Assembly (NCBI RefSeq): GCF_035083965.1
Contig: NC_089738.1
Coordinates: 4,239,398-4,303,397, forward strand
Length of the DNA stretch: 64,000 nucleotides
Source of the DNA: Branchiostoma lanceolatum
Lineage: Eukaryota > Chordata > Leptocardii > Amphioxiformes > Branchiostomatidae
Reading direction: 5' to 3'
In this document: positions 33,063 through 63,569 of the stretch, one piece after another
Layout: each line of letters opens with the position of its first letter
Numbering within the stretch: position 1 is the stretch's first letter
The notes under the pieces: generated by a model
Seen by the model: only the letters and a program-made list of their open reading frames with translations
Databases searched by the model: none
What the model was told of the DNA's origin: nothing
Translations under genes and position numbers: made by a program

Positions 33063-33183
33063 AGTTCCTCCGGGTTTTGAGTCAACCACCCTATTCACAA
33101 GTCTATTGTGCCAACTTCATCATCTGGTGTCTAGAAATATATAACTGATCATCATGTCCTGTTTTTTTTTCCAGGATTAAAGT

Positions 33184-43310: not shown

Positions 43311-44243
43311 ACGTCCAGCTTGCTTTCCTCTCTTCTTTGATGGTTTGTTTACCATTTAGAAATAGCGCATTACAAGTGAGGAGGTTGGCTTGATCGATAG
43401 CTTTAATATTGAATCATCATCGCACAACATAGATTGCCTAGAAGGCTACTTCTTCCATTCTAGCGCATCCGTAATGATACCATATATGGTCTAGTGTATG
43501 AGGAAATTCCGCCACCTTTCGGCAATGCCTATGTTTGCAGATTTCTTTTAATACAACGCCCATGATATCTTAATCATTTGTGTTGTGACCACAGATGACT
43601 TCTGTCGTCTTCAGCAGCAGGGGTTGAGATATGTAAACCGCACCGCCCCTTGGAAACAAGCCAGAAAAACACGAAGTTATGGGCGTCGTAACCAGCCAGG
43701 TTTGACAGTGTATACACAGCTACTGATGAGGCTGTCAACTTGTCCGTATACCAAGTCCGTTTGAGATATTGACAGTTTTTTTTTCATACGCAGTCGTGCG
43801 CACTTGATATACGCACAAGTGTGACAGCCCCTTATAAATTACATCAGGAGGACGTAGAGTAAGCACCTGGGACACTGGTGACTGCCCCGACAACTGTTGT
43901 ACTAGGAAACCGCCCCTTTCTTATAATATTGCAGTCATTGTGTACACCTGTGTCAAGCAGCGGCTGTGATGAGAGGCCAAGGGCAATGTTACATTTCAGA
44001 ACTAATACACTCGCGGAGAAGGAACTTAGGGATTCAATCCGTGAAGACCCTATCCTGCCGGTTCTCGCTCTTCCAGCTGGTTCGAAGATTTGTAGGGAAT
44101 TATTGGGTCCACAGCAGGAAGTGTTGTCTCAGTACACTTAGTGACAGCCAATTTGGTCAAACAGCAAACCAAAGATCACATACAGCGTGTTTAGCGGCTC
44201 CATCCGCAAGAGGTGGTCCAGGGGTAAATTTCAACACAGCGCC
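43310..44243 (+). other. Upstream region of lectin gene A
   Basis: No coding exon recognised. A TATAAAT-like element near 43835 is a possible core promoter of gene A, but this is weak. An upstream membrane-stalk exon like that of genes B and C was looked for and not found. Confidence 0.3.
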
Positions 44244-45338
44244 ATGGATGGAAGTCGGGGAAGATTTCTTCTCGTGACCATGGGGTTGGTGATGGGCGTT
44301 CTTCCCGGAGTGGTGATCGGCAACACCGGAGAACCAGGTCCTAAAGGCGACACTGGAGAACTAGGCCCTAAATGCAGTATGTATGCTGAAGATCAAGGGC
44401 CTAAATGCGACACTGGAGAACCTAAAAGTCCAAAGGTGAGTGTAGGGTTAATGTTGGTGAGTTCAAATGGTGGATAAAAAGTTAGGGGAATAATCTTACT
44501 CGGTGGTCTTACTCGGCATTAAAGAATGAAGGTGTACATGTTTTCGCCGTTTTGATTTCTTTCATAATGTAGAAGTAATTTACATTCCACCAGGGGCCAA
44601 AAGGTGACCAAGGTGACCAAGGCTTGGCTGGTCCCAAGGGACAGAAGGGTGACCAGGGCCCAGTTGGTCCACATGTCCATCGATGTGAGTACGCTGTAAC
44701 TGGTGTTGTGATTTGCGGTTGTTTCACTAACGTACATAGTAGAAGTTGTCATATCTTCGAAACCAAACCAATTGTGATGTTAAGCATGGTGTAACAAAAT
44801 GTTAGAACTTTAATAGGCTACTTGACCAAAATCTGAAGAACCCATCTATATTATATTACGTAATACCTTTCTACTTCTGAAATACTTGCACTTGCATTGC
44901 TGCATTAATTGTTTGACAAATGAGCGTTGTCTTTTCCAGTTAGACGGACCAGCCAAATTGAGCTTCTCCGATTCTGTGATGTGCTTTAGAAATAGCCGAA
45001 AGCGATGGCTTTCAAGAAATGACGTTGCGCCTGAACCGACTTTGTCATTGAATATTGTTTCAGGCGACCTTGGACGCGTAGACACTGGCCCACCGCCCCA
45101 CCGTCTCTCCGCAGGACACGGACTGCGCGACATCTGCAAAATCCACCGCTTCGACAATGCCTTCCTTGAGACACCGGTTGTTCATATCGGTCTCGCCCAC
45201 CTCGACCACCACGCTGGCCAGGAACGGATCCACACGTATGTGAAGAGCGCTTCAACGACCCAAGTCGAAGTATGCATGAGCACTTGGCATGATACAGCAT
45301 GGGTAAGGGTACAGGTAGAGATCTTTGCTTGTGGCTGA
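44244..45338 (+). CDS. Secreted collagen-like H-type lectin (copy A)
   Basis: Three exons: 44244-44435, 44594-44684 and 45064-45338, phases 0 and 1, all GT/AG, 185 residues. The start MDGSRGRFLLVTMGLVMGVL with a following small-residue stretch (GVVIG) looks like a signal peptide. Residues about 27-91 are collagen-like, interrupted once by a cysteine-containing segment (CSMYAEDQ); exon 2 gives a clean run of Gly-X-Y triplets. Cys95 ends the stem. The last exon holds an H-type lectin domain, about residues 115-184 (RFDNAFLETPVVHIGL, TWHDTAWVRVQVEIFAC). H-type lectins are known to bind N-acetylgalactosamine-like sugars as trimers, which fits a trimerising collagen stem. It lacks the membrane helix and furin site of copies B and C, so it is probably the soluble paralogue. 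A role in pattern recognition is inference. Confidence 0.85.
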
Positions 45339-46138
45339 ATAGGAACAGTTTAAGCTAGTCATGTCAACAAATTAAATCAATGACATGTTTTATGCAAGAG
45401 AGATATCCGTAGTTTATCTTATAGCAGCAAATTTCGCATCAGGTTGAATATGATACATATGGCAAAAGAAACTTTCGAGGAAGTATGCTCTCTTCATCTG
45501 CATGTTTTGTCCATCTAAGTTCTTATGAGAAACACTCATAATATGTCAGTCATAAAGGTTAAAATCATTTCGAAGGTATGAGGTCGTGGAACTCTTCTTT
45601 CAATCATGTCAACCGATCAGTTTCATCGGTCAATTTTCATGCAAGAGAGATATCTGAAGTAGAGTTTTTGTACAAATATAATACATATGTCAAATGCAGT
45701 AAAAAAAAACAACTTATGCTCTAATTATTTGCATGTTTTGTTCATCTAAAATCTTTGTAATGTATTAGAAGATGGTGTCATTTTTACACACGTAAAGGCA
45801 GTCTTTACTTAAAATCATGTACCAAAGAGGTCAAGGATGTGTTATGATGTATTTCCATTATTAATCTCATGGTAAGTTGTCTGCTATCATTTTGCGCGAT
45901 CTTTTACTTCATATCTACCCAACACCATTGGGTTTTTTTCAAAATTTCATTGTTTTAATTGTTGTTCGGGTCACTGTGTAAATCTGAGGATGGGAGTAAG
46001 GGTATCTATAGAATACATGTATATTATATACTGGGATCCCATTACACTTGTTATAAAGAATATACAAAACTATATCTAAGTCAATAGTACATGTTCTTCA
46101 CTGCTAAGTGCCCTGATCATTGATAGCAACACTTAAAA
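45339..46138 (+). other. Copy A 3' flank, homologous to the flanks of copies B and C
   Basis: AT-rich non-coding sequence related to 55741-56303 and to 63570-64000 (shared phrases such as GCATGTTTTGTTCATCTAA). It marks this as part of the tandem duplication unit. No gene seen. Confidence 0.6.
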
Positions 46139-46140
46139 TA

Positions 46141-47405
46141 AACTACGCACAAAAAGTTCGGAAACTTAACTTTGGTCGATCATATTTCCGTTATTTTTTT
46201 ACCGATTTCAATATATTACATATCATTTAAAAGCCTATTTGATTTCCTTTCCCATGATACCAAACTTATTGTGATTGCAAGTTCATGAAACGAGCATCAG
46301 GCCTGCTAAAGTGAGTGGGTCGAAGAAATAAAGTGCCCAGATTATCTTACTATAGTCAAACATGCTATTCCGTACATATTCTTCTGTTGATATTGACTTC
46401 TGTACGAGGGTATTGTGAAAAATCAACAAGAATAAAAAAGACATATTCATGAAAGCTAAGTTTATTCTTTATCAAAACCAACAATCTGTGTCTTAGTAAC
46501 GGGTTAGCAAGGAGTCTTAGTAACGGGTGATCCAGCCACGCGCTGTCACTACAGCACGGCACCTCCTCCTCATACTCGTCACCAGTCGCGCAATGCGATG
46601 CTGTGGGATAGCGTCCCATTCCTCTACCAGCAGTCGTCCTAGGTCAGCCACCGTGTCTTGCACGGACAGCTCGCCCAAGCTGCTCCCATAGATGTTCGAT
46701 GGGGTCCAGGTCCGGGCTCTTAGAGGGCCACTCCATCCTTTCTACACCTGCATGCTGGAGATGGTCGGCGATGATCCCTGCCCGGTGTGGGCGGGCGTTA
46801 TCATCTTGCAGCAAGGCATTCGGCCCCATGTTATGGAGGAAAGGGATGGCCACCGGATCAAGTATTGTGTCACGATATCTTTCTGCATTGAGGGTTCCTG
46901 GTACAAGTCTTGTCTTTCCCCTGGAGTTTATGCCTCCCCATACCCCAATGTTTGTTGTGAAACAATAACAAAAAATAACACCTGTGGATGACGATACCGT
47001 TGCAGGACGCAGGTGTTTATGTGGTGTAAACAATTGGTTCTTCGATGTGCTAAAAATAACCTTGGATGTTCTGTGTGCTAGAAATAACCTTGGATGGTCT
47101 GTGTTCTAAAATCAACCTTAGAACCTGAGGAAACAATATATTGAATCATCATCCACGCCCATACCGATAGGATGTCACAGCGCGCGTATGACACCAACAG
47201 GGAATTTTAGGCACTTATTCTCCGTGACCCACTCACGTTATTAGTCCTGGTACTTGTTCCGTGGGTTTTCAATCACAATAAGTTTGGTATCATAGAACAG
47301 GGAATCACACAAGCTTTATAATTATATATAATGCATCAAAATCGGTAAAAAACAACGGAGATATGATCAACCAAAGTTAAGTTTCCGAACTTTTTGTGCA
47401 TAGTT
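46141..47405 (-). mobile_element. Tc1-like DNA transposon, 1265 bp, defective
   Basis: Long terminal inverted repeats (about 200 bp, imperfect) start AACTACGCACAAAAAGTTCG and are flanked by TA target duplications at 46139-46140 and 47406-47407. The minus strand encodes the C-terminal half of a Tc1 transposase (VWGGI, QDDNARPHRAG, WPSKSPDLDPIEHLWEQLGR; about 47033-46644), including the second Asp and the last acidic residue of the catalytic triad. The N-terminal DNA-binding part and the first catalytic Asp are missing, apparently by internal deletion, so it is non-autonomous. The homologous DNA downstream of copy B (TA at 56304) is uninterrupted and represents the empty site, so insertion followed the duplication. 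Confidence 0.9.
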
Positions 47406-47407
47406 TA

Positions 47408-48030
47408 CATATTGCCACTACGTAGTAACTCGCCTTGTTTTAAGTCATCCTAATAATCAGGTAGCCACATTCTTATGGCTGGCTCCGCAATAAGTTCGTA
47501 TTATTCTTGTGGGGGGGGGGATAGCTGACTTGGTATGATTTATTATTCATCATCAAGTTCACTTTGAATCTTTTTAGATAACTTAAGTCGAATCCTGTAA
47601 ACTGTTCAGAGACCACTGCACATGTATATGGTCCTATCAGTGTGTGCCACCGTGAGGAATATCAAATAAATCATCATCACTTGTATCGCATTGGTGAAGT
47701 TATCATTCTATCTCCACACATTGGCAGTGTTTAATCGTGTATTATCAAGTTCCCTTGATCTTGTCTTTATTGTTTTGTGATACATTAATAAGTTCCTATC
47801 ATTGGTCATCGCCCAGGAATAATCATCCAAACTGCAATTATAGACTGAAGGTTTTTAAAACGCTATGGTTCTTATGCAAGGTGGATAAAATTCTTCTTTT
47901 CTTTTTATAGGTTTGCCAAAGAAAATGAATATATTGAATGGCAACAGGGACAACATGGGTGTGTGTTCATGTGCATGTTTTAGTTATGTGTGGATAAGCA
48001 TGTGTGTTCAGGTGTGTGTGCATGCTGTGT
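47408..48030 (+). other. Spacer shared by the A-B and B-C intervals
   Basis: Non-coding sequence matching 56306-56880, including the stretch TTTGCCAAAGAAAATGAATA before the TG microsatellite. It is part of the tandem duplication unit. No gene seen. A G-run lies at 47512-47520. Confidence 0.6.
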
Positions 48031-48081
48031 GTGTCCGCGCGCGCGTGCGCGCGTGTGTGTGTTCGTGTGTTTCTGTGTGTG

Positions 48082-48125
<44 letters not shown>
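48030..48125. repeat. (TG)n microsatellite
   Basis: Near-pure TG/CG alternation, including a GCGCGCGTGCGCGCG stretch that could adopt Z-DNA. The equivalent at 56880-57030 is more degenerate. Confidence 0.95.
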
Positions 48126-48128
<3 letters not shown>

Positions 48129-48129
48129 A

Positions 48130-51100
48130 GCCCCTTGTGTTGACCTCAACAGATGACTAAATGTGACATTGAGAGTTATTGCAAACTACGATAAAGGCGT
48201 TTGAAGGACACGTTTAGATGACCGCATGTAACCGAAAGAGTACTGTCAAGTAAACAGCCATTCAGGCATCAACAGAAGGATAACTTGTATATGATTTGTC
48301 ACAGACACAGGAGGGGTGTCCAGTTCAGTCTGAAACAATGGGGTTTGAATACAAGTGAAAATGGGCAGATTTTGTGTAAATCTGATATCATATTATACAT
48401 ATTGGCATATCCACAATGCCCTCGGTAAGGTATTGTTCTCGCTTCGGTGAGAACCAAGCGGATCGGAGGAAACTCGTGTTGACCTCGTCAGGTGTCTGAA
48501 TGTGACCTTGAGAGTTATTGCAAACCACGACACAGACATTTTGAGGAAACGTTAGATGACCGCATGTAACCGTAAGAGTTAGTTACAGAGTGGTGCCTTC
48601 AATTAAAGAACCTTTCAGGCATTAGCAGAAGTATAACTTATGCGTGACTTGTCACAGACTGGTGTGTCAAGTAGGAATACAAGTAAAATGATCAGATTTC
48701 GTGTAAATCTGATATCATATTATATCTTGTCATATCCACAATGCTCTCGGTACGGCACTCTTATCGCTTTGGTCAGAACTGAGTGGTTCGGGGGAAACAT
48801 GTGTTGATCTCAGGTGCAAACTACGACAGAGGAAACGTTTAAATGACTGCATGTGACCGCAAGAGCTAGTTATAGAGTGGTACATTTCCCTTCAGGCATC
48901 AACAGAAAGATAACTTGTACGTGACTTGTCACAGACACAGGGAGATGTGTCCAGTTCAGGTTTGGATTTAGAATAAAAACAGATAGGTAGACGGTAAAAT
49001 CTCGCCTCATATCATGTATTACAATATCAAGAATGTTATCGGTAAGGTAACCCGCTCGCTTTGATCAGAATTGAACCAAGTGGTTGGACAAAACTTGTGT
49101 TGACCTCATCAGGTGACCGACCGTTGTGACGTTGTAGATTTATTTTACAAACCACGACAGAGGCGTTTGGAGGAAACGTTAAGTTGACCGCAGGTGACCG
49201 TAAGAGCCAGTTACAGAGTGGTACATTTCAACAGCTATTCAGGCATTAACAGAAGGATAACTTGTACGTGACTTGTCACAGACAGGTGTGTCCAGCTCAG
49301 TCTGAAACAATGGGGTAGAAACAGGTAGGGAACAAGTAGAAATTGGCAGATTTTGTGTATTCATGATATCTTGTTATATTCACAATGCTCCCGGCAAGGT
49401 CCTTTCCCCGCTTTGGTCAGTATTGAGCGGCTTTGGGGAAACTTGTGTTGACCTTAGGCGCAAACCACGACAAACGTTTTTGGAGGAAACGTTTAGATGA
49501 CTGCATGTGACCGTAAGAGCCAGTTACAGAGTGGTACCGTCAATTAAACAGTCCTTCAGGCATTAACAGAAGGATGCGTGACTTGTCACAGACACAGGCA
49601 GATGTGTCCAGCTCAGATTGGGATTAAAAGAATAGATAGAAAGACAGGTAAAATTGGAAGATTTCGTGGAGATCTCGTATACCTCTTGCTTTGGTAAGAA
49701 CCAAGCAGTTCATAAGAATCTTGTGTTGACATCAGACGACCAACTGTGGCATTGAGAGTTTTTAAAAAAACACGACAGAGGCGTTTGAAGGAAACGTTAA
49801 ATGACCTCATGTGACCGTAAGAGTTAGTTACAGAGTGGTACATTTGAACATCCCTTCAGGCATTAACAGAAGGAAAACTTGTGCGTGACTTGTCACAGGC
49901 AGGGGTTTCAAGTAGGAAAACAAGTAAAAATGGACAGATTTCAGTGTAAATCTGATATCATATTATATCTTGTCATATCCACAATGCTCTCGGTAAGGCA
50001 CTCGCTTTGGTCAGAACTGAGTGGTTCGGGGGAAACATATGTTGATATACGTGATCTCAGGTGCTAACCACGACAGGGGAAACGTTTAAATGACCGCATG
50101 TGACCGCAAGAGCTAGTTACAGAGTGGAACATTTCCCTTCTGGCATTAACAGAAAGATAACTTGCACGTGACTTCTCACAGGCACAGGCACATGTGTCCA
50201 GTTCAGGTTTGGATTTAGAATAAAAACAGATAGGAAGATGTAAAGTCTCGCCTCATATTATTTACAGTATTACCATATCCAGAATGCTATCGGGAAGGTA
50301 CCCCTCTCGCTTTTTTATAAGAACCAAGCGGCTTGGAGCAAACTTGTGTTGACCTCATCAGGTGACCGGCCGTTGTGACGTTGCAGATTTATTTTTACAA
50401 ACCATGGCAGAGGCGTTTGGAGGAAATGTTTAGTTGACCGCATGTGACCGTAAGAGCTAGTTACAGAGTGGTACATTTCAACAGCCCTTCAGGCATTAAC
50501 AGAATGATAACTCGTGCTTGACTTGTCACAGACAGGTGTGTCCAGCTCAGTCTGAAACAATGGGGTAGAAACAGGTAGGAAACAAGTAGAAATAGGCAGG
50601 TTATGTGTATTTATGATATCTTGTTATATCTACAATGCTCCCTGCAAGGTCCTTTCCTCGCTGTGGTCAGTATTGAACGATTTTGGGTGCAAACCACGAC
50701 AGACGTTTTTGGAGGAAACTTTTAGATGACCGCATGTGACCGAAAGAGCCAGTTACAGAGTGGTATCATCAATTAAACAGCCCTTCAGGCATTAACAGAA
50801 GGATGCGTGACTTGTCACAGACACAGGCAGATGTGTCCAGCTCAGATTGGGATTAAAAGAATAGATAGAAAGACAGGTAAAATTGGAAGATTTCGTGGAA
50901 ATCTCGTATACCTCCGCGGTCAGAACCAAGCAGTTCATAGGAATCTTGCGTTGCCATCAGACGACCAGCTGTGACATTGAGAGTTTTTGAAACCACGACA
51001 GAGGCGTTTGGAGGAAAAACGTTAAGATGACCGCATGTGACCGTAAGAGCTAGTTACAGAGTGGTACGTTTCAACAGCCCCCCGCGGGCGTTAACAGAAG

Positions 51101-51360
51101 AATAACTCGTGCTTGACTTGTCACAGACAGGTGTGTCCAGCTCAGTCTGAAATGACGTGGTAAAAAGCAGGAATGCAGCTAAAAATGGGCAGATTTTGCG
51201 TAAATTTCATATCTAAAATTATTTTGTGGTATCCACAATACTCTCAGTAAGGTACCCCTCTCGCTTTGTTGAGAACCGAGCGGTTAGGAGGAAATTAACA
51301 TGTGTGACCTCAGGTAACCAACTGTGACGTGGAGAGTTTTGTGAACCCCGCCAAAACTCC
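48130..51360. repeat. Tandem array of about eleven ~0.3-kb units upstream of lectin gene B
   Basis: Units of about 280-345 bp recur, each starting near TGTTGACCTCA (for example about 48137, 48477, 48802, 49098, 49446, 49724, 50040, 50347, 50680, 50950, 51300). Each contains the same ordered words: GCATGTGACCGTAAGAG, TTACAGAGTGGTAC, TTCAGGCATTAACAGAAGG, GACTTGTCACAGACA, GTGTCCAGCTCAG and ATCCACAATGCTCTCGG. At least two unit types (a longer form with GTTGTGACGTTG and a shorter form) alternate in places, suggesting higher-order duplication. No coding capacity is conserved. The last unit runs into the gene B promoter. Confidence 0.9.
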
Positions 51361-51419
51361 TCAGGCATCAGCTGAAGGCCACTCAAAAATAGACACGGAC
51401 AGGTTTTTCCTCTTAACTC

Positions 51420-51743
51420 TGAACCAATGGGCACGCTTGGTGATGACAGCATGATCACGTGAACGCGACGTCACGGATGATGACGACAGAATACCGGGAA
51501 AATTGGGCAGCTTATGTTTAATTGTGACATCGCTGTATATTTATAGCAAAATGCACAATAGAAAATCTATTTTGTTTGCGTCGCGGGTTTTCCCCTGGCG
51601 TCTACCTTTTATGGCGGAAAAGAGTGTAAAAGTGTATAAAAGGGACCGAAAACTTGTGCAAGAACAGTACTCCAACGTCGCCTGTCCCGATCTGAACACT
51701 TAGTCTCTGTCACAGATCGGTAAAAGTTTATCTGTAGAGGAAG
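51420..51743 (+). promoter_or_regulatory. Core promoter and 5' UTR of lectin gene B
   Basis: A TATA box (TATAAAAG, 51635-51642) lies about 100 bp before the start codon, placing transcription start near 51665. Upstream are a CCAAT motif (about 51424), an E-box CACGTG (51456-51461) and a CRE-like GACGTCAC (51467-51474). The same elements in the same order precede gene C. Confidence 0.7.
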
Positions 51744-54700
51744 ATGATCCCAGAGAAGCTCCTCAGCCACGGTCGGGACCACAGCAGTCGCGGCTCTGTC
51801 ATCCAGCTCTTCGCGGCCGGTGTTTTCCTGGTTGCCGTCTGCCTGGTGCTGTGGAAGGGGGCTGAGCTGAGGGAACGCCGGGTCGTGCTGGACAGGGTCC
51901 TGGACGAAGTCACCCTACAGAGCGAAGAGATTCGGTACCTGAGAGAACAGGTCTACTTGCTGAAGAAAGAAAGAGAAGACGACAAGACTCACTCCGAGAC
52001 ACCAGAAGACACCGTCCAAGACGAGGCCTTTCAGGAACAAGATTTGACAGCAGGAACTGAAGTAAGAGTCCTTGTGTTTCTTTGTAAATATTTACTTCGT
52101 TGTTGAAATTAGTGGTCACGCTTAAGGTTTTTATGCTAGACTTGAGTTCTGCTGGAAGAATCCTTCCCCTCTGTGTTTTTCGTATTGCCAAGTACCTATT
52201 TAAGAGCCCCAGTCCGCCACAGACTACGCTCAAATATCTGGTGTCTTGTTGGACAATGATACCGTGCATGTCGCAGTCAAATTCCATGTGTTCTTTTTGA
52301 CCGGTTAAACAAAAGACAAAACTTTATCTATCCATCCATCCATCTATCCTATTCATCCATCTATCCATCCATCAATCTATCTAGCAATAAGTCAATCGAT
52401 CAATGAAAAACATTCCTAACTTTTGAAGTATCCTGTTCACCCACCAAACTAACAAACCGCGCGTCCGCCTGCCGTTTAATGACTGTGTTTATACCAGAAC
52501 CAGTGACTGTCGCTAACGCGTTTAAGACAACTCCTTTGCACTGATAATTATTTGTGACCTCTCACGTTTTGAACTTTCGTCAATTGTTAACTCCGCCCAC
52601 TTGACATAATGCCAAGTACGTAGATCTGTGATATGCTCCAAGCAGAGGTTTCGGTCGGAGGGCTCAGTGTAGTGGCCGCGATTTTTACCTCTCCCTCCCT
52701 TCACGTTAAATTTAAAATCGCGGCCACTCCTTCGTGTTTAGACTTTCAGTCAGGAAAGGTGACATGAAACTGTCGCCAGTGTTATGAAGCGTTCAGGAAA
52801 CCCCATTTTTTCAACGGAATCAGGATACAAAGATGGCCCCGTTGACGTGGTGACTGTTGCTTGTTCAATTACTTTTTCTGTTATACAGCTTCACTCGTAC
52901 TTTTTCTACAACACTGAAAAAAAGCAAAATACTAGTGCTTGTAGACATTTTGAAACATAGAGTTGATGGCAAAGTAGCTTTTCTTGAATATTTATACAAT
53001 TAAGTCGTAACTTTAATTTTGCACTTTTACTACCACTTCAGTATCAAATCATATGGTAGCGTTTCCAAGCTTCTTCTAACGTTGGTAAATACATTCTGTG
53101 TGCAATAGGCGTTAATCTTGGAATCAGTAGACACAAACAAGACGCCAACATGAATTAACTATCGATAGATATGAACTCGGTTGGAACAAATATCTTCATT
53201 ACATCTAACGTTAGATCTTGAAGATATGTTTGGAACTTTGACCTGTATAACAGTTGCCCGCCTAGGGGTGGAATAGATTATGATGTTTACCCCTACTTCT
53301 ATTTCGCAGTCGGAGTCGACGGACAGTGACGTTGATACAGGTGATCTGGACGACATGGGGGACACTCCCTGGCGACTGAAAGATGTACTGCACAGCAGAT
53401 CGAAGAGGAGTCTTAGTAAGTTTTTGTGGCAGACGAAATAAAAAGTTTAAACCAAAACAAAACTACAGAATTATAAAGTTGCAGAATTATATATCCAGCA
53501 ATACATCTAACGCTCCCGGTCTAGGATATTTAATCGTCATGATAGGAATATCTGTATCTGTATCTGTATCTATATAGCCGGTATAACCGCCATCAGGCGT
53601 AACACACCAGCTTCGCAGGCACGCGGCGCGGCAGCAGCTGGTCATATTACACCGAACGGTCTGTTACACCTAGTCTTTGCATATCTGACTGCAACCGTTC
53701 TTTAAAGCTACTTAGTGATGAAGCTCCTACAGTACTTGATGACAACGAGTTCCATTCTACTATGGTTCTCGGGAAATACGAATTTTTGAACACGTCAATC
53801 CAATAATACAGTTCTATAAGATGCTGCTTATGGCACGACATCTACACATTGGACGCTCATTTTGCCTGTATTTCCAGGGTGCTACCCATCCGCGTGTAAG
53901 GGAGACATTGGACCGAGAGGCAGGAGAGGACCACGAGGATTTAAGGTAAGCTTGAAATGATACGCAAAGACGGAACAATGATGAATATTGTGTTTTCACG
54001 CCAGAGATCTAGGATATCAAGGGCCTCACTGTGAATCAATGTTATATAATGGGTACTAGAAAGGATACATGCTTTATGCTACGGTCACAATTGCGCCAGT
54101 GCCCGTAGGGGGTGTAGCCCCGTTCGGGCCCCGAAGCCACAGAGTTGTCCCTGTGTACTGCCGGATACGGGTTGGGGGGGGGGGGTGCCTCTCGGTGTTC
54201 TCAGGATTACCTTACGGTGTCTGTTTGTTACCGGGTCCCGGGTTGATTTTAAATTCGAGTTAAAAAAAGAATCCCGGGGACCGGTCGTGCACAAAATAAG
54301 CCCGGTAGCCGAAGGTTGTCCCACGGGGCCTTGTCCGTTGAATGAGCTCACTCGATGTGGCGTGACATCACTCGGCGGTGCAAGATTGTTGTTGTACATC
54401 TTTTCGCCATCTTAGTTCTTTTTTCATTCTTCATTACACCAGGGGGAAAAAGGTGACCGAGGCTACCAAGGCTCCACTGGCTCCAGGGGACTGCCAGGTG
54501 CCCGAGGTCCAGCCGGCCGTAAGGGTGACCGTGGTTTCCGTGGCATCCAGGGAGAGAAGGGTGACCCGGGCCCAGTTGGTCCACACGTCCGGCATTGTGA
54601 GTACACTGTAACTGGCGGTATGAATTTCCGTCATATTTGTCAAGAAGTGACGCGTTGTGTTTTCGACATTCACAAAATTCACAAAATTTCATAGATAGTA

Positions 54701-55740
54701 TTTCTGTGGGCATGGTTTTAGCTCAGCGAGAGACATTCTTTAAAACATTGGTTGAAGTTTTTCTCTTATTCTTTAAAACATTGGTTGAAGCTTTTCTCTT
54801 ATTCTTTAAAACATTGGTTGAAGCTTTTCTCTTTTTTCTTTTTACCGGAACGATGAAATGATTGACAAGACCATTAATAAGTTACTGGACCTACGTCTGA
54901 AGAAACGTTTTTTATTTCCTTTCTACAACTGAAATACTTGAACTCATATTGCTACATTCATTGTTTGACAAAAAATGTTGTCTACACCAGTTTGGTCAGA
55001 CAAACAAAACTGAACTCTGTGCTGAAATTATCTGCGTTAGAGATAACTGAATGCTGTAACTGTACTTGTTATCACAAATGGCTTTCTAAGAAAAGGAAGT
55101 TACTAACCTACTTAACTTATTCATTTAATGTAGATTGTAGTTTATATAGCAACAATAGAAATGTTTTGTTTGATTATATTATGCGAACGTTTCCACACTT
55201 TCAATTGATGTCTAATATTTAAAAATTCATTTTTAGTATGCGTTTTGACCATGCAATATAAAACAAGTCCATCTCAACTTATATTTCTAACATCACAAAG
55301 AGACGAGAAGAGGCCGAACCTATGAATTAGAGTAGTTTTAGAATCATTTCTTTATATTAGTATTAGAAATCCTGTCAGTGTCATTTTATATGTATTTTGT
55401 ATCCATATGCCTGTACTTGAATGAATGTACAATAAAGGTTATCATTATATTGAATATTCTTTCAGGCGAGATCGGACGCGTAGAGACTGGTGCACCGCCC
55501 CACAGTCTCAACACAGGCACCGGAAAACGCGAAATTTGCAAGATCCACCGCTTCCGCCATCCGTTCCTTTACGCACCGGCCGTTCATGTTAGTTTCACCC
55601 ACCTCGACCATCACGCTGGCCAGGAACGAATTTTCACTTACGTGAGGAGTGCTACGAAAACCCAAGTCGAAGTATGCATGGGTACTTGGCATGATACTCA
55701 ATGGGTTAGGGTACAGGTAGATATCCTCGCTTGTAAATGA
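51744..55740 (+). CDS. Type II membrane collagen-like H-type lectin (copy B)
   Basis: Five exons: 51744-52061, 53310-53415, 53878-53945, 54443-54596 and 55466-55740, phases 0, 1, 0, 1, 306 residues. Layout: cytoplasmic residues 1-17; membrane helix about 18-37 (SVIQLFAAGVFLVAVCLVLW) with no cleavable-signal features; heptad-like, charge-rich coiled coil about 40-80; acidic linker; furin-type RSKR at 136-139 followed by Ser. Cys143 and Cys148 come next, then 21 uninterrupted Gly-X-Y triplets (150-212), Cys216, and the H-type lectin domain about 235-305 (PFLYAPAVHVSF, HHAGQERIFTYV, CMGTWHDTQW, VDILAC). The positive GRRGPRG and GRKGDRG triplets are typical of ligand-type collagen stems. It is probably trimeric at the cell surface and shed by proprotein convertases; this is inferred from layout alone. 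Intron 2 holds a LINE-tail insertion absent from copy C. Confidence 0.9.
52320..52385. repeat. (ATCC)n microsatellite in lectin gene B intron 1
   Basis: Runs of CATCCATCCATC interrupted by CTAT. The homologous tract in gene C is at about 60080-60140. Confidence 0.9.
52630..52730. mobile_element. Hairpin MITE, truncated, in lectin gene B intron 1
   Basis: Homologous in position to 60394-60511 (CTCCAAGCAGAGGTTTCGG and AAATCGCGGCCACTCC) with the same left flank GTAGATCTGT. The right end and flank are missing, so a deletion has occurred in copy B. Confidence 0.75.
53551..53801 (-). mobile_element. 5'-truncated LINE tail in intron 2 of lectin gene B
   Basis: A 251-bp insertion flanked by AATA (53547-53550 and 53802-53805); copy C keeps the empty site (AATA at 61735). 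On the minus strand it encodes the extreme C-terminus of a non-LTR reverse transcriptase (FPRTIVEWNSLSSS followed by SLSSFKERL) and ends in a (GATACA)n microsatellite tail, as in CR1/L2-type LINEs. A related fragment lies at 11477-11625. Confidence 0.85.
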
Positions 55741-56880
55741 AGAGATTCGGTCTTCAGTTCTAGTCATGTCAACAAATCAGTGGCATGTCTCAATTTTCGT
55801 ACAAAAAAGATATCTCAAGTAGAAGTTTTGATAACACACTTTGGTATAAGGTTAGATATCATACATATGTCAAAAGTATGCTCTTTTCATTTGCATGTTT
55901 TGTTCATCTAATTTCTTTGTAATCTTTTAGAATATGGTGCTATTGTTATACATGTGAAGGCAGTATTGATATTCTTATCAGTGTACCAAAGGGGGGAATT
56001 ATGTGTTATAATGTTAGTTATGTTATGATGTGTTATGACCCCATTAGTAATCTGACTCTTTGTTGTCTGCCATGGTTTTGCAATTGCGATCTTTTGCTTC
56101 ATGTTTACCCAACATCAATGGTTTGTCAAGATCTCATTGTTTTGTGTTTGGTTCACTGTGTAAATCTTAGAGTATCTATAGAGTTTATTGTATAGTGCAA
56201 TCTCAATACCCTTGTCAAGAATACAAAGCTAACGTTATTTCTAAGACAATAGCATATGTTCTCCACTCCTCAGTGTTCTGATCATTGATAGCAGCATTTA
56301 CAATACATATTGCCAACTTGTGTTAAGTTATCCTGATATTCAGGTAACCGCATTCTTATGGCTTGGTCCGCAATAAATTCGTATTATTCTTTTGGTGGGG
56401 ATCGCTGACTTGGTATAATTTACAATTCATTATCAAGTTCACTTCGTATCTTTTTAGATAACTAAAGTTGAATCCTCTAAACTGTTCAGAGGCCATTGCA
56501 CATGTATGTGGTCCTATTAGTGTGTAACATCGTGATATCGTGAATGTCAAATAAACCATTATCTTTAGTATCACATTGGTGAAGTTATCATTCTTTCTCC
56601 ACACACTGACAGTGTTTTACCATGTATCATCGAGTTCACTTCATCGGTATCATTATTGTTTTCTGATACATTAATAAGTTTCTATTATTGGTCATCACAC
56701 AGGAATAATCATCCAAACTGCAATTATAGACTGAAGGTTATGGTTCTTATGCAAGGTAGATAAAATTGTTCTTTTCCTTTGATAGGTTTGCCAAAGAAAA
56801 TGAATATATTGAATGGCAACAGGGACAACATGGTCGTGTGTTTATGTGCATGTTTTAGTTATGTGTGGATAAGCATGTGT
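55741..56880 (+). other. Copy B 3' flank and spacer
   Basis: Non-coding, AT-rich sequence homologous to the copy A flank without the Tc1 element (uninterrupted TA at 56304-56305) and, for its first part, to 63570-64000. No gene seen. Confidence 0.6.
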
Positions 56881-57035
56881 GCTTATGTGTGTGTGTGCGC
56901 GTGTTTGTCTGTGTGCGTGTGTTTGTGCGTGTGTTTGGCTGTGTTTGTGTGTCTGTATGTTTGTGTGTGCCTGTATGTGTCTGTCCGTGTGTATGTGTGT
57001 GTGTGTGCGTGTGCGTGTGAATGTGTGTGTCAAAA
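56880..57035. repeat. Degenerate (TG)n microsatellite
   Basis: TG-rich sequence with frequent TTTG, TCTG and CG interruptions, at the position equivalent to 48030-48125. Confidence 0.9.
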
Positions 57036-57039
57036 GCCC

Positions 57040-59150
57040 CCGTGTTGACCTCAACAGATGACTAAATGTGACCTTGAGAGTTATTGCAAACTACGATACA
57101 GGCCTTTGGAGGACACGTTTAGATGACCGCATGTGACCGAAAGAGTGCCGACAATTAAACAGCCATTCAGGCATTAACAGAAGGATAACCTGTGTATGAC
57201 GTGTTACAGACAAAGGAGGGGTGACCAGCTCAGTCTGAAACAATGGGGTTGGAATACAAATAACAATGGGCAGATTTTGTGTTTATCTGATATCATATCA
57301 TATATATCGGTATATCCACAATGCTCTCGGTAAGAACCTAGCGGTTCGGAGGAAAATCGTGTTGACCGTAGCCCGTCAGGTGACAGAATGTAACCTTGAG
57401 AGTTTGTGCAAACCACGAAAGAAGCTTTTGGAGGAAACGTTCAATAAATGACCGCATGTGACCGAAATAGTTACAGGCTGGTACCGTCAATTAAACAGCG
57501 CTTCAGGCATTAACAAAAGGATAACTCATGCGTGACTTGTCACAGACAGGTGTGTCAAGTAGGAATACAAGTAAAAATGGGCAGATTTCAGTGTAAATCT
57601 GATATCATATTATATCTTGTCATATCCACAATGCTCTCGGTACGGCACTCTTATCGCTTTGGTCAGAACTGAGTGGTTCGGGGAAACATATGTTGATCTC
57701 AGGTGCAAACCACGACAGAGGAACTGTTTAGATGACCGCATGTGACCGCAAGAGCTAGTTACAGAGTGGACCATTCCCCTTCATGATCAGGCATTAACCG
57801 AAGGATAACTGGTGCGTAACTTGTCACAGACACAGACAGATGTGTCCAGTTCAGGTTGGGATTAAAAAACAGATAGGAAGACAGTTTAAGGGAAGAATTC
57901 GTGTAAATCTCGCCTCATATTATATATTACCATATCCAGAATGCTATCGGGAAGGTACGGTTCTCGCTTTGGTCAAAACCAAGTGGTTTGGAGAAAACTT
58001 GTGTTGACCTCATCAGGTAACCAACCCTTGTGACGTTGCAGTTTTTTCTTTAAAACCACGACAGAGGCGTTTGGAGGAAACGTTAAGTTGACCGCATGTG
58101 ACCGTAAGAGCTAGTTACAGAGTGGTACATTTCAACAGCCCTTCAGGCATTAAGAGAAGGACAACTTGTGCGTGACTTGTCACAGACAGGTGTGTCCAGC
58201 TCAGTCTGAAACAATGGGGTTGAAATAGAAGTAAGAATGGGAAGATTTTGTGTAAATCTGATATCATATTTCGTCCACAGTGCTCTTAGTAAGATATTAT
58301 TCTCGCTTTGGTCAGAACATAGCAGTTCGGTGGAAACTTGTGTTGACCTCATCAGGTGACCAACTACATGTGGCGTGGAGAGTTTTTGAAAACCACAACA
58401 GAGGCGTTTGGAGGAAACGTTAAGTTGACCTCATGTGACCGTAAGAGCTAGTTACAGAGTGGATCACTTCAACAGCCCTTCAGGCATTAACAGAAAGATA
58501 ACTCCTACGTGACTTCTCACACACACAGACAGATGTGTCCAGCTCAGATTGGGATTTGAAATAAAAACAGATAGGAAGACAGTTAAAGGGAAGATTTCGT
58601 GTAAATCTCGCCTCATATCATATATAAGTATATCCAGAATGCTATCGAGAAGGTACCGTTCTCGCTTTGGTCAAAACCAATTGCTTTGGAGGAAACTTGC
58701 ATTGACCTCATCAAGTGACCAACCCTTGTGACGTTGCAGATTTTTTTTACAAACCACGACAGAGGCGTTTGGAGGAAACGTTAAGTTGACCGCATGTGAC
58801 AGTAAGAGCTAGTTACAGAGTGGTACATTTCAAAAGCCCTTCAGGCATTAACAGAAGGATATCTTGTGCTAGACTTGTCACAGGCAGGTGTGTCCAGCTA
58901 TGTCTGAAATGACGGGGTAAAAAATAGGAATACAGCTAAAATGGGCAGATTTTGCGTAAATTTCATATCTTATAATATTTTGTGATATCCACAATACTCT
59001 CCGTAAGGTACCCCTCTCGCTTTGTTCAGAACCGAGCGGTTAGGAGGAAATTAACATGGGTTAACCTCAGGTAACCAACTGTGACGTGGAGAGTTTTGTG
59101 AACCCCGCCAAAACTCCTCAGGCATCAGCTGAAGGCCACACAAAAATAGG
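57040..59150. repeat. Tandem array of about seven ~0.3-kb units upstream of lectin gene C
   Basis: Same family as 48130-51360, with unit starts near 57043, 57358, 57690, 58002, 58334, 58702 and 59065. It shares the words GCATGTGACCG, TTCAGGCATTAACAGAAGG and GACTTGTCACAGACA. The array is shorter than the one before gene B (about seven units against eleven), so copy number has changed since the gene duplication. Confidence 0.9.
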
Positions 59151-59174
59151 CAGCTTTTTCCTCCTTACTCTGAA

Positions 59175-59493
59175 CCAATGGGCACGCTTGGTGATGACAG
59201 CATGATCACGTGAACGCGACGTCACGGATGATGACGACAGAATACCGGGAAAATTGGGCAGCTTATATTTGATTGTGACATCGCTGTATATTTATAGCAA
59301 AAGGTACAATAGAAAATCTATTTGGTTACGTCGCGGGTTTTCCCCTGGCGTCTACCTTCTATGGCGGAAAAGAGGTCCAAAGTGTATAAAAAGGACCGAA
59401 AACTTGTGCAAGAACAGTACTCCAACGTCGCCTGTCCCGATCTGAACACTTAGTCTCTGTCACAGATCGGTAAAAGTTTATCTGTAGAGAAAG
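59175..59493 (+). promoter_or_regulatory. Core promoter and 5' UTR of lectin gene C
   Basis: Near-identical to the gene B promoter: CCAAT (about 59175), CACGTG (59207-59212), CRE-like GACGTCAC (from 59218) and a TATA box (TATAAAAA, 59385-59392) about 100 bp before the start codon. Confidence 0.7.
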
Positions 59494-62400
59494 ATGATCC
59501 CAGAGAAGCTCCTCGGCCAGAGTCGGGACCACAGCAGTCGCGGCTCTGTCATCCAGCTCTTGGCGGCCGGTGTTTTCCTGGTTGCCGTCTGCCAGGTGCT
59601 GTGGCAGGGGGCTGAGCTGAGGGAACGCCGGGTCGTGCTGGACACGGTCCTGGACGAAGTCACCCTACAGAGCGAAGAGATTCGGTACCTGAGAGAACAA
59701 GTCTACTTGCTGAAGAAAGAAAGAGAAGACGACAAGACGCACTCCGAGACACCAGAAGACACCATCCAAGACGAGGCCCTTCAGGAACAAGATTTGACAG
59801 CAGGAACTGAAGTAAGAATCCTTGTGTTTCTTTGTAAATATTTATTTCGTAGTTGAAATTAGTGGTCACCCTTAAGGTTTTTATGCTAGACTTGAGTTCT
59901 GCTGGAAGAATCCTTCCCCTCTGTGTTTTTCGTATTGCCAAGCACCTGTTTAAGAGCCCCAGTCCGCCACATATTACGCTCAGATATCCATATCTGGTGT
60001 CTTGTGGGACAATGATACCGTGCATGCCGCAGTCAGATTTCAAGTGTTCTTTTTGACCGGTTAAACAAAAGACAAAACTTTATCCATCCATCCATCCATC
60101 CATCCATCTATCCTATCCATCCATCCATCCATCAATCAATATATCAATAAGTCAATCGATCAATGAAAAACATTCATAACTTTTGAAGTATCCTGTTCAC
60201 CCACCCACCAAACTAACAAACCGCCCGTCCGCCTGCCGTTTAATGACCGTGTTTATACCAGAGCCAGTGACTGTCGCTAACACGTTTAAGACAACTTCTT
60301 TGCACTGATAATTGTTTGTGACCCCTCACGTTTTGAAGTCTCCTCAAACGATAACTCCGCCCACTTGACATGATGCCAAGTACGTAGATCTGTAATATGC
60401 TCCAAGCAGAGGTTTCGGGACTAGTAGTGGCCTCGAATTTTAACATCTCCCTCCCTTCACTTTAAAAATCGCGGCCACCTCTTTGACCCCCACGAAACCT
60501 CTACTTGGAGAGTAGATCTGTGAGACCTCCGCGGGAGCCATGAAGAATTACGTCTTCGACACATATAGGCTTTATTTTGCACATTATCGTTGTGCATGGG
60601 TATTTGTACAATGAAACAAACACTACATGCTTCTTTTAAATTGAAATGTTCACAACTCTCATTTGAAAAAAAAGGACGATACGGTCTGATGACACCAAGA
60701 AGAGACAATGCCAAGAAGATCTCTTCTTTCAGTCTAGTGCCATAATAAGGACAGGTGACACGAAACAGCCAAAGCATCCGTCGTCAATGTTAAGTGTTCA
60801 GGAAAAAACTTTTTTCAACCGAGTTAGGATACAAACTTAAGATGATCCCCTCCCTTCACAAGGTGACTGTTACTTGTTCAGCTGCTTTTTCTGTTGTACT
60901 GTATTACTCGCACATTTTCTACAACACTGAAAAAAGCAAAATACTACTGCTTGTAGACATTTTCAAACATAGAGTTTAAAATGATGGCAAAGTATCTCTT
61001 CTTGAATATTTATACAATTAAGTCACAACTTTAATTTTGCACTTTCACTACCACTTCAGTATCAAATCATCTGGTTTCCAAGCTTGCTTTAACGTTCTTA
61101 GATAGGCGTTAATCTTGGAATCAGTAGACACAAACAAACGTCAATATAAGGTAACCATCGATAGATATGAAATCGGGTGGAACAAACATCTTAATTACTT
61201 GATAGACAAGATATGCTTTGAACTTTGACCTGTAACAGCTACCCACTTACAGTTATGGTTTATCATTTATCTAAATCTCATTCTTTCTTTATGTTATCAA
61301 TTTAATCATTTTCATCAATTTGTTACTCTTTGATATCTTAGCACCCTAGATTTTAAGCACTGTTAGTTATGTAATTGCAAATTGGATTTTAGTCTGTTTT
61401 CGCACTCGGCGTTACCGATATGTACCACCGCTCTAAAGGTGAATAAAGTCTAAAGGTGGAATAGATAATGATGTTTTTCTTTACTTCTAATTTGCAGTCG
61501 GAGTCTACGGACAATGACGTTGATACAGGTGATCTGGACGACATGGGGGACACTCCCTGGCGACTGAAAGATGTACTGCACAGCAGGTCGAAGAGGAGTC
61601 TTAGTAAGTTTTTGTGGCAGACGAAATAAAAAGTTTGAACCAAAACAAAACTACAGAATTATAAAGTTGCAGAATTATATATCCAGCAAAACATCTAACG
61701 CTCCCGGTCTAGGATATTTAGTCGTCATGATAGGAATAATACAGTTCTATAAAATGCTGCTTATGGCACGACATCTACACATTGGACGCTCATTTTGCCT
61801 GTATTTCCAGGGTGCTACCCCGCCGCGTGTAAGGGAGACATTGGGCCGAGAGGCAGGAGAGGACCACGAGGATTTAAGGTAAGATTAAAATGATACGCAA
61901 AGACAGAACAATGATGAATATTGTGTTTTCACGCCAGAGATCTAGGATATCAAGGGCCTCACGGTGAATCAATGTTATATAATGGGTACTAGAAAGGACA
62001 CATGCTTTATGCTACGGTCACAATTGCGCCGGTGCCCGTAGGGGGTGTAGCCCCGGCCGGGCCCCAAAGCCACAGAATTGTCCCTGTGTACTGCCATATA
62101 CGGGTTGGGGGGGGGGGGTGCCTCTCGGTGTTCTCAGGATTACCTTACGGTGTCTGTTTGTTACCGGGTCCCGGGTTGATTTTAAATTCGAGTTAAAAAA
62201 GAATCCCGAGGACCGGTCGTGCACAAAATAAGCCCGGTAGCCGAAGGTTGTCCCACGGGGCTTTGTCCGTTGAATGAGCTCACCCGATGTGGCGTGACAT
62301 CACTCGGCGGTGCAAGACTGTTGTTGTACATCTTTTCGCCATCTTACTTCTTTTTTTTTATTCTTCATAACACCAGGGGGAGAAAGGTGACCGAGGCTAC

Positions 62401-63569
62401 CAAGGCTCCACTGGTCTCAGGGGACTGCCGGGTGCCCGTGGCCCAGCCGGCCGTAAGGGTGACCGTGGTTTCCGTGGCATCCAGGGAGAGAAGGGTGACC
62501 CGGGCCCAGTTGGTCCACACGTCCGGCATTGTGAGTACACTGACTTTCCATCATATTTGTTAAGAAGTGACGTGTTGCGTTTTCGGCATTCACAGAATTC
62601 ACAACATTTCATAGATAGTATTTCCGTGTGCATGGTTTTAGCACAGCGAGAGGCATTCTTTAAAACATTGGCTGAAGCTTTGGTTGAAGCTTTTCTCTTT
62701 TTTTCTTCTTACCGGAACGAGGAAATGATGGACAAGACCATTAATAAGTTACTGGACCTACGTCTGAAGAAACCTTTTTTCTTTTCTTTCTACAACTGAA
62801 ATACTTGTATTGCTATATTCATTGTTTGACAAAAATGTTATCTACACCAGTTTGGTAAGACAAAAAAAAATGAACTCTGCTGAAATTATCTGCGTTAGAG
62901 ATAACTGAATGCTGTAACTGTACTTGTAAACACAATTGGCTTTCTAAAAAAAAGGAAGTTACTAACCTACTTAACTTATTCATTTATTTTGTTTGATTAC
63001 ATGATGGGAACGTTTCCACACTTTCAATTTATGTCTAATATTTAGAAATTCATTTTCATTATGCGTTTTGACCATTAAACAAGTCCATCTCAACTTATAT
63101 TTCTAACATCACAAAGAGACGAGAAGAAGCCGACCCTATGAATTAGAGTAGTTATAGAACCATTGTTTTAGATTAGTATTAGAAGTCCTGTCAGTGTCAT
63201 TATATATGTATTTTGTATCCATATGCCTGCACTTAGCCCGTGATAAGATATGAATGTACAGTATAATAAAGTTTATCTTTGAATATTCTTTCAGGTGAAA
63301 TCGGACGCGTAGAGACTGGTGCACCGCCCCACAGTCTCAACACAGGCACCGGAAAACGCGAAATTTGCAAGATCCACCGCTTCCGCCATGCTTTCCTTTA
63401 CGCACCGACCGTTCATGTTAGTTTCACCCACCTCGACCATCACGCTGGCCAGGAACGGATTTTCACGTACGTGAAGAGCGCTACAAAAACCCAAGCCGAA
63501 GTATGCATGGGTACTTGGCATGATACTCAATGGGTTAGGGTACAGGTAGATATCCTTGCTTGTAAATGA
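59494..63569 (+). CDS. Type II membrane collagen-like H-type lectin (copy C)
   Basis: Five exons: 59494-59811, 61498-61603, 61811-61878, 62377-62530 and 63295-63569. All have exactly the same lengths and phases as copy B, giving 306 residues. The protein differs from copy B at few positions (for example LLGQS for LLSHG near the N-terminus, GLR for GSR in one collagen triplet, HAFLYAPTV for HPFLYAPAV in the lectin domain). The membrane helix, coiled coil, RSKR site, 21 Gly-X-Y triplets, flanking cysteines and H-type lectin domain are all intact. Introns are also highly similar to copy B, pointing to recent duplication or gene conversion. Differences are an empty LINE site at 61735-61738, a complete hairpin MITE and extra sequence in intron 1, and a shorter tandem array upstream. 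Confidence 0.9.
60080..60140. repeat. (ATCC)n microsatellite in lectin gene C intron 1
   Basis: Purer CATCCATCCATC run than in copy B, at the equivalent position. Confidence 0.9.
60394..60511. mobile_element. Hairpin MITE, CTCCAAGCAGAGG family, in lectin gene C intron 1
   Basis: Left TGCTCCAAGCAGAGGTTTCG and right CGAAACCTCTACTTGGAG ends are inverted, with TAGTGGCCTCGAATTTT against AAAATCGCGGCCA inside. GTAGATCTGT flanks it on both sides (60384-60393, 60512-60521). Same ends as 38615-38724. Confidence 0.85.

Follow-up and report, generated by a model that had tools for sequence, protein, structure and literature searches.

Tandem lancelet genes for predicted membrane-tethered H-type lectins with a collagen stem and a furin motif

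The window analysed here, 64,000 nt of Branchiostoma lanceolatum DNA, contains two tandem genes of five exons each, copy B (51744–55740) and copy C (59494–63569), and a third paralogue, copy A (44244–45338), which lies outside the span of the initial annotation. That span, 51744–63569, proved exact, running from the A of the B start codon ATG to the final base of the C stop codon. The features of B and C are as follows.

51635..51642, + strand: TATA box of B, TATAAAAG, 109 bases before the ATG
51744..52061, + strand: B exon 1; ATG, 17-aa stub, predicted signal-anchor helix, coiled coil, acidic linker
53310..53415, + strand: B exon 2; acidic linker and RSKR-SL, phase 0 in and phase 1 out
53878..53945, + strand: B exon 3; CYPSAC, then Gly-X-Y triplets 1–5
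54443..54596, + strand: B exon 4; the other sixteen Gly-X-Y triplets, ending within the Cys216 codon
55466..55740, + strand: B exon 5; H-type lectin domain, stop
59385..59392, + strand: TATA box of C, TATAAAAA, 109 bases before the ATG
59494..59811, + strand: C exon 1; content as in B exon 1
61498..61603, + strand: C exon 2; carries RSKR-SL
61811..61878, + strand: C exon 3; CYPAAC, then the first five collagen triplets
62377..62530, + strand: C exon 4; collagen
63295..63569, + strand: C exon 5; H-type lectin domain, stop

Both genes splice to 306 aa without an internal stop. Exon lengths (318, 106, 68, 154, and 275 nt) and phases (0, 0, 1, 0, 1) are identical in the two copies, and their alignment has no indels within exons and 536, 255, 3, and 133 gap columns in the four introns. 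Exons 2–5 are under constraint, with 7 nonsynonymous and 16 synonymous codon differences between B and C (binomial p = 9e-6 against 0.75). Codon usage is uninformative for exons 3 and 5, where other frames score equally or higher. The encoded proteins comprise, in this order, a predicted signal-anchor helix, a coiled coil, an acidic linker, RSKR, a cysteine segment, collagen, a cysteine, and an H-type lectin domain. The order of parts given in the initial annotation is thereby borne out by the joined five-exon proteins, in which both Pfam domains, H_lectin and Collagen, score above their cut-offs. The gene structure, the domains with their order, and the constraint on exons 2–5 can be read from the DNA itself.

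The collagen run consists of exactly 21 unbroken Gly-X-Y triplets (aa 150–212); shuffling the B protein 20,000 times gave runs of at most 7. The register is unbroken over the junction of exons 3 and 4. Two cysteines (C143 and C148, in the CYPSAC segment of B and CYPAAC of C) precede the run and one (C216, its codon split between exons 4 and 5) follows it. Pfam Collagen (PF01391) scores 41.8 bits in B and 41.5 bits in C, against a cut-off of 27.2, in agreement with the cysteine-flanked 21-triplet stem described earlier. Only three residues, VRH, separate the last triplet from Cys216, and no helical neck precedes the head. The MASP-binding motif of collectin stems is GK-X-GP, which does not occur in every collectin; no such motif was found in the stems of A, B, or C.

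The last exon had been read as an H-type lectin, and the domain search proposed with that reading agrees with it. Pfam H_lectin (PF09458) scores 30.7 bits in B, 29.1 in C, and 35.2 in A (cut-off 24). Apart from H_lectin and Collagen, nothing in Pfam matches the whole proteins up to E 1, and on this ground another fold for this exon was rejected. Among sequences of known structure, the head matches discoidin-1 (E 2e-4) and Helix agglutinins (E 1e-3 to 5e-3); used as a profile against PDB, it retrieved six matches, all six of them H-type lectins. The head can be aligned with discoidins and Helix agglutinins over 63–77 residues. The H-type lectin fold is a six-stranded sandwich that forms trimers and binds GalNAc or galactose. 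Helix Asp26, presumably a sugar contact, lies just beyond the aligned block of the profile match, and simple extension puts a threonine opposite to it. Between B and C, the lectin exon is under purifying selection (6 synonymous and 4 nonsynonymous differences; dN 0.019, dS 0.126).

Exon 1 encodes a strongly hydrophobic stretch at aa 18–36, with a mean Kyte-Doolittle hydropathy of 2.61 in B and 2.27 in C; the predicted signal-anchor helix spans aa 18–37. The type II membrane helix of the initial annotation is thus present as far as hydrophobicity goes, whereas its topology is left ambiguous by the flanking charges (+1 before and +2 after in B, +1 and 0 in C, the N-terminal amine left out), which are therefore compatible with a cleaved signal peptide as well. 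Likewise, the proposed coiled coil is seen as a heptad pattern at aa 46–73, only moderately beyond chance (fractions of 0.0095 and 0.011 of 20,000 shuffles were as good). TATAWAWR has 14 matches on the + strand of the whole window. The codon-usage score of B exon 1 is 0.236; the codon usage of exon 1 was reached by none of 2000 non-coding windows, in B and in C, and 0 of 300 dinucleotide shuffles yielded a comparable exon. At the same time, exon 1 differs between B and C by 9 nonsynonymous and 2 synonymous changes, as expected without constraint, and its identity of 96–98% per 100 bases is hardly higher than that of the flanks (92–97%).

With simple splice criteria, exon 2 is the only candidate between exons 1 and 3 of each copy that can be entered in phase 0 and left in phase 1. 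Omission of exons 2 and 3 as a pair preserves the reading frame and would yield a product that lacks the furin motif. The splice donors of the first two exons agree with the consensus at only 6 of 9 bases, a level equalled or exceeded by 16% of GTs on the + strand. A short alternative first exon, bordering a GT microsatellite, is common to both copies (47925–48011 in B, 56800–56886 in C). Of the alternative candidates, four stretches were scored individually. All four have the codon usage of non-coding DNA: as good a score was found in 1455 of 2000 non-coding windows for 47925–48011 (B), 1783 for 56800–56886 (C), 1673 for 56800–56994 (C), and 1405 for 52633–52758 (B). No TATA box was found within 250 bases upstream of their three start points.

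RSKR occupies aa 136–139, is encoded by exon 2, is followed by SL, and lies between the predicted anchor and the collagen. The furin site of the initial annotation is accordingly in the right place, while the shedding attached to it goes beyond what the motif can carry: the minimal pattern R-X-[KR]-R occurs three times per protein (RSKR, RERR at 43, and RGRR at 155; shuffle average 0.44), so the RSKR motif alone is no proof of cleavage and was judged not to exceed chance. A chain cut at RSKR would start with SLRCYPSACKGDIG, that is, with a cysteine-bearing N-terminus directly ahead of the collagen, and its predicted pI would be 10.1 in B and 10.0 in C. Net charges are +8 for the stem, +3 for the head, and -18 for the acidic part of the linker.

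Copy A is an older paralogue that keeps collagen and lectin behind a signal-peptide-like start. Its exons are as follows.

44244..44435, + strand: A exon 1; signal-peptide-like start, six triplets, interruption with two cysteines
44594..44684, + strand: A exon 2; nine Gly-X-Y triplets, homologue of B exon 4
45064..45338, + strand: A exon 3; H-type lectin domain and stop, 68% identical to B

The exon phases of A are those of the collagen and lectin part of B and C. Its start has a mean hydropathy of 2.28 over aa 8–26, but the codon usage of exon 1 is weak (a fraction of 0.1 of non-coding windows are as good, and another frame, with stops, scores higher), and no TATA box was found in 43700–44260. 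With runs of 6 and 9 triplets, the collagen of A reaches 24.9 bits in Pfam, below the cut-off of 27.2. Its collagen parts are neutral to slightly acidic (charges 0 and -1), so that, of the three copies, only B and C have a basic stem.

We assign a probability of roughly 0.6 to the reading of B and C as genes for an H-type lectin that has the layout of a collectin, is tethered to the membrane, and is shed by furin. All of its parts are known; their combination looks new. From the sequence we infer sugar binding and specificity, topology, cleavage, trimerisation, and an immune role as follows. The product would be a homotrimeric type II membrane protein, anchored by the N-terminal helix, its C-terminus facing the secretory lumen. 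Close to the membrane, the coiled coil would unite three chains and let the collagen stem, about 18 nm long, zip up; at the tip of the stem, the H-type lectin head would form a cap with three sugar-binding sites. Cleavage after RSKR by furin or a related protease would remove the anchor, the coiled coil, and the very acidic linker, and release a basic chain of 167 aa, about 18 kDa before collagen modification, in which the two cysteines of SLRCYPSACKGDIG are followed by collagen, the layout of a mature collectin. These cysteines would lock the trimers and could also tie several of them into larger oligomers. The protein would probably detect microbes by their GalNAc- or galactose-type sugars, first at the surface of the cell and, once cleaved, in body fluid, and it may act in innate defence. 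Paralogue A would be a constitutively secreted short form.

A first alternative concerns the N-terminus. If it were a signal peptide, or if the membrane exons belonged to another transcript, the gene would make a collectin-like H-type lectin that is secreted, and the type II receptor would be an artefact of the gene model. The signal-peptide-like start of A, the lack of purifying selection on exon 1, the ordinary donors of exons 1 and 2, and the ambiguous charges beside the helix all agree with this, and there is a precedent in a fused lancelet gene model (Lectin_C plus fn2) that proved an artefact according to the available part of PMC4967905. We nevertheless consider it improbable, as each copy has a TATA box 109 bases ahead of exon 1, which also shows strong codon usage, the four other first-exon stretches look non-coding and their starts are without a TATA box within 250 bases, and exon 2 is the sole bridge found. 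Moreover, neither the 17 aa ahead of the hydrophobic stretch nor RSKR would be of much use to a secreted chain.

Two further explanations accept the membrane protein and differ in its role. Macrophage scavenger receptors bind polyanions by a basic collagen stem, and B and C share with MSR1 the order of type II helix, coiled coil, and collagen. Their stem, with +8 per chain and +24 per trimer and with no basic counterpart in A, could work in the same way, the lectin head being secondary or not sugar-binding. The purifying selection on the lectin exon and its 68% identity in A make such a role very unlikely, and the basic residues may serve only charge pairing in the triple helix. Gliomedin, MACIT collagens, and ectodysplasin are vertebrate furin-shed type II collagenous proteins, and such proteins act in matrix and signalling; by analogy, B and C might be developmental or matrix adhesion proteins, transmembrane-collagen or gliomedin-like, the shed form being deposited in matrix and binding host glycans. 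Tandem duplication with fast N-terminal change is more typical of defence genes, a weak argument, and we regard a matrix role as unlikely.

Returning to the furin-shed lectin, we tentatively put forward a bolder version, which we consider rather doubtful: B and C may be the first members of a third class of collagenous lectins for defence, next to collectins and ficolins and with an H-type head, in which furin converts a membrane receptor with an acidic coiled-coil pro-region, registering the collagen trimer and masking the basic stem, into a soluble, basic opsonin, while the neighbouring paralogue is secreted. In vertebrates, the complement lectin pathway is started by collagenous lectins whose heads are of the C-type or fibrinogen kind; the H-type lectin domain is best known from snail eggs and slime moulds. 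A collagen stem bearing such a head would mean that the plan of a stem with a trimeric head has also been reached with another lectin, and in these proteins membrane receptor and soluble opsonin would be one gene product, one cut apart.

Among known systems, the H_lectin head is shared with Helix pomatia and Helix aspersa agglutinins and Dictyostelium discoidins, down to short motifs (LNTGSGKRE in discoidin-1, LNTGTGKRE here; TWHNT in Helix, TWHDT here). The snail agglutinins are soluble, single-domain proteins and the discoidins are soluble with an F5/8-type domain; to our knowledge, both are without collagen, membrane helix, or furin motif. Collectins and ficolins resemble B and C in their short cysteine-bearing segment, collagen, and C-terminal lectin head, and CL-P1 also in its type II membrane helix and coiled coil. 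In contrast, B and C have an H-type head instead of a C-type or fibrinogen one and no helical neck, and no C-type lectin domain matched up to E 1 in Pfam, which sets them apart from collectins. The ectodysplasin A layout of type II helix, furin motif, collagen, and trimeric head was aptly compared with B and C in the initial annotation, although no TNF domain matched up to E 1 in Pfam and, after cleavage, a collectin is closer. Gliomedin and MACIT collagens have the type II orientation, coiled coil, furin shedding, and collagen; the collagen of B and C is much shorter than in MACITs, and no olfactomedin domain, as in gliomedin, matched up to E 1 in Pfam.

A description of collagen joined to an H-type lectin was not found in the available parts of PMC3094311, PMC8878817, PMC9334734, PMC5549309, and PMC12119288, and likewise of PMC12220804, PMC4284660, PMC4967905, PMC6071037, PMC12373286, and PMC12843592. 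In prokaryotic and viral contigs, 47 and 117 stretches, respectively, matched by pattern and none was confirmed as a relative by tblastn; given the nature of these collections, this result says nothing on other animals. The three NCBIfam matches, all to bacterial adhesins of collagen-like type, scored far below the respective cut-offs. A phage source for B and C is unsupported: tblastn of their head in 50,697 phage records gave nothing up to E 1, and a Helix agglutinin segment gave one Cutibacterium phage lectin (phage CA1NRNZ, E 0.08), whose translation is by inspection without a collagen run and whose profile comparison with the heads yielded a probability of 1.1%. While these phages do have an H-type lectin domain, their collagen and lectin are in separate genes; in P. 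acnes phages the lectin is encoded by gp17, and gp19, two genes away, is a collagen-like tail gene (PMC3094311, available part).

Genes B and C, whose predicted products carry a membrane helix, a collagen stem and an H-type lectin head, are tandem duplicates. The coding sequence of each is split into five exons bordered by GT...AG, and exon lengths and phases match between the copies. The span 51744..63569 that the initial annotation gave for them agrees exactly with these exon models.

Coding exons of B and C (window positions)
Exon 1: B 51744-52061; C 59494-59811
Exon 2: B 53310-53415; C 61498-61603
Exon 3: B 53878-53945; C 61811-61878
Exon 4: B 54443-54596; C 62377-62530
Exon 5: B 55466-55740; C 63295-63569

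In self-alignment, the three longest blocks pairing B with C (47434-50035, 50688-52727 and 53802-56165, against downstream partners) are 78.9-88.7% identical. The exons align without gaps, and the four introns contain 536, 255, 3 and 133 gap columns. Upstream of both B (48130-51350) and C (57040-59110), adjoining a GT microsatellite, lie arrays of repeats whose diverged units are about 64-80% alike. The spliced products are 306 aa each and differ at 16 residues.

Features of the predicted B and C proteins (residues)
18-37: hydrophobic stretch
46-73: heptads, p about 0.01
After the heptads: acidic linker, net charge -18 over the part counted
136-139: RSKR
143 and 148: cysteines
150-212: collagen, 21 triplets
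216: cysteine
Up to 306: H-type lectin

The protein motif scan found neither an N-glycosylation motif nor a GKxGP motif. A profile of the three lectin exons, including that of the diverged paralogue A, matched, up to E 1, six different PDB sequences, each a discoidin or a Helix agglutinin (E 1e-4 to 5e-3). In the aligned blocks, TWHNT of Helix corresponds to TWHDT here, and an arginine that we take to be a GalNAc contact in Helix is retained. The Helix aspartate, presumably also a contact, lies just ahead of these blocks; a simple extension of the alignment sets a threonine opposite it.

Exons 3, 4 and 5 belong together, since the Gly-X-Y register runs unbroken across the exon 3/exon 4 junction and the codon for Cys216 is split between exons 4 and 5. 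Exon 1 exits in phase 0, and exon 3 requires phase 1. The interval between them was searched for a stop-free exon accepting phase 0, delivering phase 1 and satisfying simple splice criteria; it yielded one candidate in each gene, namely exon 2. For exons 1 and 2, the donor agrees with the consensus at 6/9 bases. As to other starts, the open upstream extensions of exons 3 and 4 contain no in-frame ATG, whereas that of exon 5 of B contains one, which falls within the intron. Two Met codons occur in exon 2, neither with a hydrophobic leader. Joint skipping of exons 2 and 3 would keep the frame and remove both RSKR, the candidate furin motif, and the two-cysteine segment CYPSAC (CYPAAC in C), possibly giving an uncleavable form.

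A lancelet lectin gene fusion was shown to be an artefact, according to part of one report (PMC4967905), and we therefore treat the join of exon 1 cautiously. Upstream first exons with an ATG, at least 20 codons, a hydrophobic stretch above 1.6 and a donor of at least 6/9 number 3 in B and 11 in C with a phase 0 end, and 4 and 10, respectively, with a phase 1 end leading directly to exon 3. Only two kinds are common to both genes: exon 1, and peptides around an MNILNGNRDN start that border or extend into the GT microsatellite. Among these peptides, the shortest (47925-48011 in B, with a donor of 8/9; 56800-56886 in C) has hydropathies of 1.65 and 2.07, versus 3.01 and 2.63 for exon 1. One candidate, 52633-52758, was found in B only. 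A TATA box lies 109 bases upstream of the exon 1 ATG in B and C alike; none was found within 250 bases upstream of the three alternative starts checked. A comparable first exon appeared in 0/300 dinucleotide shuffles of 45400-53300, and the exon 1 criteria applied to the window returned two hits on the + strand, the B and C copies of exon 1, and none on the - strand.

Codon usage was scored against two genes of the same window (878 codons), with 2000 non-coding windows as background.

33181-34908 (+): BTB-BACK-kelch (KLHL-type) gene, single open frame, 576 codons
40521-41573 (+): C2H2 zinc-finger gene, single open frame, about 10 fingers

Exon 1 scored 0.236 (B) and 0.200 (C), values reached by 0/2000 windows. 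Four alternative first-exon stretches scored -0.12 to -0.19, within the non-coding range (1405-1783 of the 2000 windows as good). Support for exon 1 comes from codon usage, not from conservation: of the codon differences there between B and C, 9 are nonsynonymous and 2 synonymous (dN 0.038, dS 0.027), the pattern expected under either absence of constraint or fast change, and identity per 100 bases is hardly higher in exon 1 (96-98%) than in its flanks (92-97%). Exons 2-5 are constrained (7 nonsynonymous, 16 synonymous; Fisher p 0.009 for the difference in ratio). No window equalled exon 4 in either copy (0/2000). For exon 2 the fractions as good were 0.029 and 0.043, and another frame scored higher but has three stops. 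For exon 3 they were 0.21 and 0.12, and a different open frame outscored it; for exon 5 they were 0.0195 and 0.027, a reverse-strand frame scoring about equally (B, 0.083 versus 0.086; C, 0.086 versus 0.074). It is thus the collagen register and the domain matches that carry exons 3 and 5.

Paralogue A (44244-45338) lies beyond the span initially annotated.

44244-44435: A exon 1
44594-44684: A exon 2
45064-45338: A exon 3

Its lectin exon is 68% identical to that of B (dN 0.21, dS 0.46), and its collagen exon has the phases of its B/C counterpart. The first exon encodes a signal-peptide-like start followed by collagen interrupted by a cysteine-bearing stretch. The 5' end of A is uncertain: its Pfam Collagen match is under the gathering score, codon usage in the first exon is weak, and a search of 43700-44260 for a TATA box gave none. 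With the B protein as tblastn query, matches around A are confined to the collagen and lectin exons, and exons 1 and 2 have no match in the window besides B and C. Since A has both collagen and lectin, their pairing predates the B/C duplication. Between A and B lies a Tc1/mariner-like DDE_3 fragment (46647-47105, -; Pfam 37.3 bits, cut-off 28.6).

Every single part of the B/C architecture is already known. Excerpts of published work describe immunoglobulin-like and H-type lectin domains combined in gastropods (PMC8878817), phage-tail repeats with H_lectin in one polinton-like virus (PMC12220804), and phages that carry a collagen-like gene and a lectin gene as separate units (PMC3094311). In the examined portions of non-subscription literature, we found no description of collagen and H-type lectin in one protein; it may well be present, without a name, in some public proteome. 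Extracts from a lancelet genome paper report an unusually high number of new domain pairs (PMC4284660), a claim disputed by another analysis (PMC4967905).

In the proposed working, the membrane-adjacent coiled coil would assemble three chains and hold them in register for a collagen stem that, if helical throughout, measures about 18 nm. Cleavage after RSKR would release a 167-aa chain, beginning in B with SLRCYPSACKGDIG, with a predicted pI of 10.1 (B) or 10.0 (C). This chain would share the cysteines-collagen-lectin layout of a mature collectin but lack the collectin neck. Given an acidic pro-region and a basic stem (+8 per chain), the former may also shield the latter until it is cut. Family knowledge points to putative sugar binding, shedding and a role in defence.

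Elsewhere in the window, we observed two further features.

28139-28259 (-): 5S rRNA-like, 60.3 bits (gathering 38), a gene or a 5S-derived repeat
29039-29870: long palindrome of about 830 bases, 90% identical to its own reverse complement
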